Source: Lentisphaerota bacterium (GTDB lineage: Bacteria > Verrucomicrobiota > Lentisphaeria > Victivallales > Victivallaceae). Taken from it: DNA of 32,254 nucleotides. Of the stretch, positions 26,522-32,001 are shown one piece after another (positions within the stretch are counted from its first letter, which is position 1; every line of letters begins with the position of its first letter). The notes under the pieces were generated by a model. It was given only the letters and a program-made list of their open reading frames with translations, made no database searches and was not told the origin of the DNA. A program made the translations under genes and the position numbers. The DNA lies in NCBI GenBank assembly GCA_015061775.1, contig SUVY01000028.1, positions 1 through 32,254 on the forward strand. The letters run 5' to 3'.

Positions 26522-27334
26522 TTACCACTGGGCGTTGTGCCAGAAGTTGTTGCCCCGATTCTTGTTGAAGGTATTGGAGCCGCTTCCTGTGGCTCTGATC
26601 TTTGCGTCCGAGAGCCACTCAACGTGACCGTCGCAGAAAGCGGCATTGGCTCCGCCGTTGTGACGGGTGGCGATGTTTTCATAGCGGTATATTCCGAATG
26701 CGCGGCTGTTTCCGACATGTTTGGTGGTATCAAGAGGTGTGGCTGAGAGTTCGCTGTGTCCGAGTACACTGTCCATTACCAGACCACGGGTTGCGGGCTG
26801 CCAGACTTTAGAGAGTATCTGATAGCGTCTGCCGCCGCTGTCGGTATCATTTGCCGGAGTTAAATCATGGAAAGTCTGATAGGTGCTGAAAGTATAGCTG
26901 TTATTGGGCGTGTCGCTGTCAAGCGGGGTGGTGATGCTGTTGGGATTCAGATAGTCACGGCGTCCGGAGGGACAGAGAGCGACTTTAAGGATATCATGTT
27001 TTTTTGCCTCTTCAAGGGTTTCGTAAACCGGGCCGCCCAGATAGGGGACAAGGGTGAATCGGTTGATAGCTTGGTATGAGGGTCCGAGCATATATATTGA
27101 ACTGTTTTTTGTTGTCCAGTCATTGTTGCTGGCGCCGCATGATTTTGCTCTGCCGTTATAGTCATCTGCATAACGAAGCATGGCAAATGCCACGTTTTTA
27201 AGGTTGTTGGTGCAGCCTGAGGTTTTGGCGCGCTCACGGGCGCTTGAGAGTGCAGGCATCAGAATCGCCGCAAGGATTGCGATGATAGCGATAACTACGA
27301 GGAGTTCGATCAGGGTGAAAGGCTTCTTTTTCAT
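26522..27334 (-). CDS. Pseudopilin-like protein with H-X9-DG C-terminus
   Basis: A 270 residue protein beginning [16 protein letters not shown], the N-terminal methylation/cleavage motif of type IV pilins and type II pseudopilins, with the hydrophobic helix continuing to about residue 30. The C-terminal [14 protein letters not shown] has the H-X9-DG motif (H, nine residues, DG) of prepilin-processing-associated proteins that are abundant in PVC bacteria. It is probably secreted or anchored to the inner membrane; function is not known. The start at 27334 is chosen for AAGGAA 5 bases upstream; an upstream in-frame ATG at 27472 has none and would bury the signal. It lies in one transcript with the beta-helix gene 17 bases downstream. 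Confidence 0.88.
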
Positions 27335-27602
27335 ATTGTTTCCTTTGGTTAGGTGGTTGTTTTTTATTGCTGAATATGCGATTTGCTCTATAAATATACG
27401 GTATAAATCACTTTTTCGCAAGGGGGAGGCTTTAAAAAAATGAAGATTTTTCATTATTTGCAGGAAAATCATGCTCGGTTATGCAAAAAGATAAAAAATT
27501 GTTCATTTTGATATTTGCAATATTCAGTTATGGAGTTAGATTAAGAAAGTTGTTTTTATTTGAATTTCAACCCTAAATAAACAAACAGGAGGATTTTCAA
27601 CC
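27335..27602. promoter_or_regulatory. Divergent intergenic region between two pseudopilin/beta-helix units
   Basis: A strongly AT-rich stretch of about 270 bases separating a leftward gene (start 27334) from a rightward one (start 27603). It must hold both promoters. AGGAGG at 27587-27592 serves the rightward gene. TTGATA- and TTGCAA-like sequences around 27508-27515 could be -35 elements, but no pair with good spacing stood out. No gene is seen here. Confidence 0.5.
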
Positions 27603-30142: not shown

Positions 30143-30955
30143 ATGAAGAAAAATATCTCATTCCCGGGAATGAGAGTAAAGACGAGCTTTACTCTTATAG
30201 AACTTCTTGTTGTCATAGCCATCATAGCCATTCTTGCGGCGATTCTGATGCCGGCTCTGTCGAGTGCACGTGAGCGCGCCAAGTCGAGCCAATGTCTCAA
30301 CAACCTCAAGCAGAGCGGTCTCGGAATCCTCTCATACGTTGATGACCACAAAGAGATTCTCATGTATTACGCCTATATCCAATGGACCATGATGCTCAAC
30401 CGCGAAGCCTTCGTCGATTACCACTCAACTGCGGCTGCGACCTGGAAATCAGGAACCTATGTTCCCAACCGTAAATCGATGATGTGTCCGGGAATATTTC
30501 CTTATACTCCTCAGAAAAAGAATTTCCGTGTGACCAAAACCGATGGTGCCCTGAGTGATGTCATCGGACGCCATATCTCTACCTACGGTTTTACCTGTCA
30601 GGTGAGCGAGTTGCAGCGCGACCGGCCGATGACAAGCACGGAACACGTGAAGTGGCGTCAAAATTTCTATGCAAACAACGAAACAAAAGATGGGTACAGC
30701 TATCGTCCGCAGTTCATACGCAACCCCTCAGGATTTTTCCTCATGGGAGACAGCTTCTATACCACCACCAACAGCGCATGGTACTGGATCGCCTTTGGTG
30801 AAGCCAAGAATATTGCCTACGCTGCCCACAACAACCGGATGAATACGCTCTGGGCAGACGGACACGCTGAATCTCTCGGACAGGGAATGCTTACCAAAAA
30901 GCTCCATACTCCGCGCAAAGCGCTGCTTTCGACATTGGACCGCGTCGATTTCTGA
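30143..30955 (+). CDS. Pseudopilin-like protein with H-X9-DG C-terminus
   Basis: A 270 residue relative of the leftward pseudopilin-like protein. After [15 protein letters not shown] comes [20 protein letters not shown], and the 32 residues from FTLIELL through ARERAK are the same in both. The remainder differs apart from the H-X9-DG motif ([16 protein letters not shown]). A likely inner membrane-anchored or secreted prepilin-like protein; its function is unknown. AAGGAG lies 8 bases before the start. It follows the rightward beta-helix gene past a terminator, so it may have its own promoter; TATATT-like sequence occurs at 30089-30094. Confidence 0.88.
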
Positions 30956-30978
30956 GCAGCTTACGCTTGATTTTACAC

Positions 30979-31001
30979 TCCGGAACGCTGTATGTTCCGG
31001 A
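30979..31001 (+). terminator. Terminator after the rightward pseudopilin gene
   Basis: TCCGGAAC (30979-30986) pairs with GTTCCGGA (30994-31001) and is followed by nine T. A classic rho-independent terminator, 24 bases beyond the stop codon. Confidence 0.85.
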
Positions 31002-31032
31002 TTTTTTTTTGCCCGCAAAAAGCTGAAAGTTG

Positions 31033-31060
31033 TTGCAAAAAACGTTTTTTGTGCTATATT
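31033..31060 (+). promoter_or_regulatory. Promoter of the structured leader/amidohydrolase transcript
   Basis: TTGCAA (31033-31038) and TATATT (31055-31060) are separated by 16 bases, predicting a start near 31067, exactly where the terminal helix of the putative RNA begins. Consensus agreement is four and five of six. Confidence 0.6.
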
Positions 31061-31066
31061 AGATAT

Positions 31067-31210
31067 ACAACATCAAAGAGTGACCACAGCTGGTCTGTCA
31101 ACCGAGGTCAGGAACCCACGGTGAATTATTCCTTCGCGGAATTGATGTGGACTTGAAAGTCAAAAAAATCCTGAAAGGCGGCGCGTTCCGTGCGGAGCTC
31201 TTTGTGTTGT
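31067..31210 (+). ncRNA. Candidate structured RNA or 5' leader of about 145 nt, unassigned
   Basis: The two ends pair: 31067-31080 with 31198-31210, 13 base pairs with one bulged base at 31073. Inside are a perfect hairpin GACCA-CAGC-TGGTC (31082-31095), a pairing TCAGGA/TCCTGA (31108-31113 with 31169-31174) and, within it, CCAC/GTGG and ATTCC/GGAAT (31116-31119/31147-31150 and 31128-31132/31138-31142). A promoter sits just upstream. It does not match the SRP, RNase P, tmRNA or riboswitch motifs I know. It could be a regulatory leader of the amidohydrolase gene or a stand-alone RNA; no T-run terminator follows it. Confidence 0.45.
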
Positions 31211-31245
31211 CATGTCGTAACAAAAAACACAGGAGCAAAAGCAAA

Positions 31246-32001
31246 ATGAGAGAACAACCGGTCGTCATCCACATTCCCCACAGCTCACACTATATTCCGG
31301 AGTTTTTGCGTCCGGATATTCTGCTTGGCGATGAAGAGCTGAACCAGAATTTCTGTTCCTTTACTGATTGGAGGACGAAAGACCTCTTTTCTCACCGGGA
31401 GTTTCCCTGCCGTATCGTTTCCAATGTGAGCCGTATGGTGTGCGACATGGAGCGCTTCCGCAGCGACAGTTGCGAAGATATGGCTGCGCACGGCTACGGA
31501 GCTGTTTATACCAGAGATGCGTTTCTGCGTCCGCTGCGCCGCTATGACAGCATAAAGAGAGAGCTGATACTCCGGTTGTACTACGATCCGCACCACAGAC
31601 AGCTTGAGGAGGCCGTCTCTGCGATGCTCAAAAAATACGGACGGTGTCTCATTGTCGATTGTCATTCGTTTTCCGGAGTTCCGCTGCCCTACGAGCCGGA
31701 GCAGGAGTTTTCACGTCCCTCATTCTGTATCGGCACAGTTGAAGGTCATACGTCAAAACATCTGATTTCCACGGCGGTGAAAACGCTTCAGCAAGACAGC
31801 GTTTCTGTTGCCTTGAACTACCCTTATTCGGGAAGTATGATACCGCTCAAACACTTTGGGGACTCCCGGGTGCAGACGCTTATGGTCGAGGTGAACCGAA
31901 GCTTGTATCAACAGCATGGAGCATTTACCTCAGTTCCGCGTTACCGGCACGTGAAAAACATTATAGGAAACTTACTCACAGCACTCTCCGCGGCATTTTG
32001 A
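31246..32001 (+). CDS. N-formylglutamate amidohydrolase family protein
   Basis: A 251 residue metal-dependent hydrolase of the FGase family, whose classic member splits N-formylglutamate to formate and glutamate in histidine breakdown. Family motifs visible are VVIHIPHSSHYIPE at the start, TDWRTKDLF, SRMVCDMERF, VDCHSFSGVPLP and the C-terminal VEVNRSLY. No other hut genes are nearby, so the natural substrate may differ. The start at 31246 is chosen because the IPHSS strand begins the family domain there and AGGAG lies 10 bases upstream; an in-frame start at 31147 would run through the structured leader. Monocistronic. Confidence 0.88.
   Translation: MREQPVVIHIPHSSHYIPEFLRPDILLGDEELNQNFCSFTDWRTKDLFSHREFPCRIVSNVSRMVCDMERFRSDSCEDMAAHGYGAVYTRDAFLRPLRRYDSIKRELILRLYYDPHHRQLEEAVSAMLKKYGRCLIVDCHSFSGVPLPYEPEQEFSRPSFCIGTVEGHTSKHLISTAVKTLQQDSVSVALNYPYSGSMIPLKHFGDSRVQTLMVEVNRSLYQQHGAFTSVPRYRHVKNIIGNLLTALSAAF

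Follow-up and report, generated by a model that had tools for sequence, protein, structure and literature searches.

Introduction

The SAM-I/IV riboswitches (RF01725) were described as a class by Weinberg et al. 2010 (PMC2864571), and PMC6890682 cites a crystal structure of this class by Trausch et al. 2014. In the comparison given in PMC6890682, SAM-I/IV aptamers have an unsplit P2, no PK-1 and a P4, while SAM-IV aptamers have a split P2, a PK-1 and no P4, with a second pseudoknot, PK-2, formed between the P3 loop and a 3' strand.

The locus reported here is in a Lentisphaerota bacterium (GCA_015061775.1, contig SUVY01000028.1, positions 1-32,254 of the forward strand), and the whole of this 32,254-nt stretch is referred to as the window. 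The window contains an aptamer that agrees with SAM-I/IV in being a full-length match to RF01725, with an unsplit P2, a CAACC/GGUG P3 core, P4, P5 and PK-2. It departs from the described members of RF01725 in having an A inserted in J1/2 and in its target, an FGase-family gene; no description of an FGase controlled by a riboswitch was found in the open literature searched. Like SAM-IV (RF00634), it has a P5 and a PK-2 after P1, but unlike SAM-IV, with its split P2, PK-1 and lack of P4, it has a P4 and an unsplit P2, and RF01725 was the match kept for the window within the clan that both families share. It also has the ligand-binding core common to SAM-I (RF00162), but its P2 lacks the internal loop (kink-turn) and it carries a PK-2, and no match to RF00162 was found in the source genome. 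Judged by its sequence, the leader RNA is thus a new member of a known family, SAM-I/IV, and not a new RNA class, and it is predicted to bind SAM.

Results

When the window was searched with Infernal against all Rfam 15 models, RF01725 was the sole gathering-level match in the 32 kb (E 3.4e-5). A preliminary description of this DNA had read the segment upstream of the hydrolase gene as a riboswitch or leader, which agrees with the aptamer found (Table 1). It had also stated that the RNA matches no known class, which is contradicted by a score above the gathering threshold (48.7 versus 41.1 bits), and its proposal of formylglutamate, histidine or folate compounds as ligands found no support, the ligand of the family being SAM. 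The three internal helices that it saw are P2, P4 and P5 of the aptamer. P2 is an uninterrupted stem with no internal loop, and inspection revealed no PK-1 because the P2 loop is short. The CAACC, GGUG, AUC and GAU core elements are all present, with one A inserted in J1/2. The fold energy of the whole 31033-31246 segment is modestly below that of shuffled sequences (z = -2.1), so fold energy alone is insufficient to reveal the structure, which the Rfam match and the covariation do reveal.

Table 1. Features of the leader and its target gene, in window coordinates
Feature	Position	Strand	Basis
Intrinsic terminator of the upstream pseudopilin-like gene	30979..31001	+	9-bp stem, then T run
Sigma-70-type promoter TTGCAA-16-TATATT	31033..31060	+	Best consensus site; promoter-like, predicted
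SAM-I/IV riboswitch aptamer, RF01725	31065..31177	+	48.7 bits, gathering 41.1; model positions 1-99 of 99
Anti-sequestor 5' arm, overlaps P1 5' strand and J1/2	31067..31080	+	13 bp with 31198-31210
P1 5' strand ACAUCAA	31070..31076	+	Pairs with 31142-31148
P2 hairpin, unsplit, 4-nt loop	31082..31095	+	Compensatory changes at two pairs
CAACC...GGUG core with P3 and P3 loop	31099..31123	+	Aptamer alignment, folding
PK-2 5' strand CAGGA, in P3 loop	31109..31113	+	Pairs with UCCUG 31169-31173
P4 hairpin	31129..31141	+	Folding
P1 3' strand UUGAUGU	31142..31148	+	Pairs with 31070-31076
P5 hairpin	31150..31161	+	Rfam alignment, folding
PK-2 3' strand UCCUG, after A run	31169..31173	+	Pairs with CAGGA 31109-31113
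Switching strand CUCUUUGUGUUGU	31198..31210	+	Pairs with 31067-31080 (ON) or, via 31198-31208, with 31226-31236 (OFF)
Sequestor 3' arm, holds Shine-Dalgarno AGGAG 31231-31235	31226..31236	+	Pairs with 31198-31208
FGase-family (PF05013) amidohydrolase, 251 aa	31246..32001	+	Profile matches, homologue conservation

The intrinsic terminator closes the upstream gene, and the leader is therefore its own transcription unit. An NsiR1 match at 30962-31009 scored 17.8 against a gathering threshold of 39 and was rejected, as it corresponds to this terminator. The promoter had been said to point at one arm of a terminal helix, and this held: the best consensus site predicts a transcription start at about 31067, where the 13-bp helix begins. 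Related aptamer loci have a comparable promoter pair 10-13 nt 5' of P1, weakest in L005. The upstream gene (30143-30955) has a pseudopilin-like N-terminal methylation motif and a DUF1559 match, and a second pseudopilin-like gene with such a motif, judged from sequence only, is found in the window at 26522-27472.

Conservation of the aptamer was assessed in an alignment of 11 RF01725 aptamers. Of the 137 genomes searched in the source order, 10 carry the family; one of the aptamers, L010, scores slightly below the gathering threshold (39.7 bits). In P1, P2 and P3 all cells of the alignment (100%) are paired, versus 32-45% in slid controls. Across the 11 loci P1 shows a compensatory change from A-U to G-C at one pair and P2 shows compensatory changes at two pairs, while P3 is invariant and uninformative on covariation. 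The PK-2 strands were assigned manually and verified at their positions, as the pseudoknot is missing from the Rfam structure line, and here 54 of 55 cells are paired and four of the five pairs covary; the exception is one broken pair in L004. The strands read CAGGA/UCCUG in the window, CGGGA/UCCCG in L009, CCGAG/CUCGG in L010, CGAGU/ACUCG in L003 and CGGAU/AUCCG in the rest, and out of the 120 possible re-pairings of these five distinct strand pairs the true one alone pairs in full. The compensatory changes proposed as a check in the preliminary description are thus present, in P1, P2 and PK-2.

The window and L009 have an additional A where P1 meets J1/2 (AUC-AAAGAG), which Infernal places as an insertion; the remaining nine close relatives lack it and read AUC-AGGAG or AUC-GGGAG. 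The nucleotides that we take to form the SAM pocket (in P1, J1/2 and P3) were assigned from the SAM-I sequence together with the residue numbers of PMC6890682. The extra A could bulge out or lengthen P1, and because it adjoins the expected SAM site the affinity or specificity of these two aptamers could differ. Its restriction to two sequences would also fit a member of the same family in which the insertion has led to a different ligand or abolished binding, with another metabolite being sensed or the balance between P1 and the anti-sequestor being constitutive. However, the CAACC/GGUG core, P3, PK-2 and P5 are intact, and the switching helices are kept in both insertion-bearing sequences, which suggests a working switch and makes so large a change in function unlikely.

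The 13-bp terminal helix of the preliminary description does exist (31067-31080 with 31198-31210; 13 pairs with one bulged U, -14.1 kcal/mol), but it is no part of the aptamer: as it takes up the P1 5' strand, helix and aptamer exclude each other. The helix is instead the anti-sequestor of the expression platform. Among 1000 dinucleotide-shuffled versions of the platform, one reached its energy. The sequestor helix, with which it overlaps by 13 nt, has an energy of -16.9 kcal/mol, matched by 25 of 1000 shuffles in the window. The leaders were then folded with P1 enforced and the PK-2 bases held unpaired (P1 state) or with the anti-sequestor enforced (ON state). The probability that the Shine-Dalgarno is unpaired was 0.01 in the P1 state versus 0.64 in the anti-sequestor state in the window, and in the two further leaders of FGase genes it was 0.01 versus 0.71 (L009) and 0.00 versus 0.88 (L010). 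In the window the two folds are near-equal in energy (-45.9 and -46.0 kcal/mol), a balance that the binding of a ligand could shift.

In each of the nine leaders analysed the anti-sequestor ranks with the best 0-2.6% of shuffles, though these leaders are related and the results are not independent tests; its sequence varies between groups. The sequestor of L010 is no better than shuffles (361 of 1000), yet the Shine-Dalgarno is hidden in this leader too. In the leaders of a second target, a gene for a protein of about 150 aa described below, the Shine-Dalgarno contrast was weaker or absent in the same folding calculation. We also considered a platform that terminates transcription and does not sequester the Shine-Dalgarno, as a weak terminator-like hairpin at 31185-31198 is followed by UCUUUGUGUU. 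However, by inspection no U run follows a hairpin there in L009, L010 or L002, and the sequestor covers the whole Shine-Dalgarno in the three FGase leaders, so that termination is very unlikely to be how this platform works.

The leader is very probably a SAM-I/IV riboswitch, predicted to work as a SAM-OFF translational switch. At low SAM levels, 31067-31080, comprising the P1 5' strand and J1/2, would pair with 31198-31210, and this anti-sequestor would leave the Shine-Dalgarno free so that the hydrolase could be translated. When SAM is bound, the aptamer would be held together by P1 and PK-2 and 31198-31208 would be released to pair with 31226-31236, hiding the Shine-Dalgarno and turning translation off. 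The computation shows that the RNA belongs to the family, that the helices are present and conserved, and that they are mutually exclusive; the direction of the switch, from SAM to gene off, we infer from this arrangement and from the way SAM riboswitches usually act, with SAM turning the gene off.

The preliminary description had placed the true start of the protein beyond a leader without coding content, and this proved correct: homologue conservation begins at the Met encoded by ATG 31246, and AGGAG lies at 31231-31235. The strong end-to-end helix and an in-frame GTG at 31147 could instead point to an independent small RNA, an unrelated structured leader or an N-terminal coding region of the hydrolase. 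However, the Rfam match, the conserved position of the element before the start codon and the protein conservation from 31246 leave these readings barely credible. A start at the GTG, named beforehand as the finding that would count against a leader RNA, was not borne out, as homologues are conserved only from 31246; the GTG falls inside the P1 3' strand.

The protein matches PF05013 with 147 bits (cut-off 28.9, E 1.2e-42) over 217 of 219 profile positions. It shares this Pfam family with HutG, but it reached only 46.6 bits against the cut-off of 278.75 for the HutG equivalog (TIGR02017), and hutH (PF00221) was not detected by profile search of the source genome, which is 98.4% complete. The same genome has two MetH-like matches and one strong metY-like match, and no Rfam family was found beside these genes. 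The predicted structure of the FGase was too poor for use (pLDDT 58).

An intact orthologue of the FGase is found in 3 of the 137 genomes (the source genome, G111 and G116), and the aptamer is directly upstream in all three. A fourth genome, G096, has a broken orthologue (L025, 1501-2105) in which the middle part is missing and the frame is shifted, and no aptamer was seen upstream of it. The distant FGase of G037 is not an orthologue, and no Rfam match was found near an Armatimonadetes FGase relative with 41% identity (L052). The remaining seven SAM-I/IV genomes are exactly the seven of the 137 with a gene for an unrelated protein of about 150 aa, and the riboswitch is upstream of this gene in all seven (L007:998-1444 on the minus strand, L002, L003, L005, L008, L011 and L060). 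None of the 137 genomes has both the 150-aa protein and the FGase orthologue. The 150-aa protein has no Pfam match, and its AlphaFold model is confident (pLDDT 90), yet no PDB fold matched it at E <= 0.001.

One genome (G094) carries a second SAM-I/IV aptamer, L004, in addition to the one that precedes its 150-aa gene. No recognisable gene lies behind L004, which is probably decaying. In other members of the phylum (L041, L043, L044, L046, L047 and L049) a short ORF follows RF01725 and carries the motif HHLWNNNGTWW..YT....R.RRSLGT, which we take to resemble the arm-binding domain of phage integrases; three of these ORFs have weak, below cut-off similarity to DUF6538.

Discussion

In the wider phylum RF01725 is found upstream of metY and metK, and this context argues for SAM as the group's ligand. 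To our knowledge FGase is not an established methionine gene. However, from the company that RF01725 keeps with metY and metK, the low HutG score, the absence of a detectable hutH and the context of the orthologues, we infer that the FGase-family enzyme serves methionine or SAM supply and not histidine breakdown, and "N-formylglutamate amidohydrolase" is probably a misnomer for this protein. As to the reaction, it is a guess, and a doubtful one, that the enzyme releases methionine from an N-formyl or N-acyl derivative. It is similarly doubtful that the SAM-repressed FGase acts in methionine salvage, for example as an N-formyl- or N-acyl-methionine amidohydrolase, with the 150-aa protein meeting the same need by another route.

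The type of riboswitch is already known, and what is new is this member and its unexpected target gene. The locus is one more well-supported case of SAM-I/IV, from gut Lentisphaeria, whose translational platform is readable. It also shows how a riboswitch family of known ligand can serve as a label, here pointing to a methionine or SAM role for the FGase-family protein and for the unnamed 150-aa protein.
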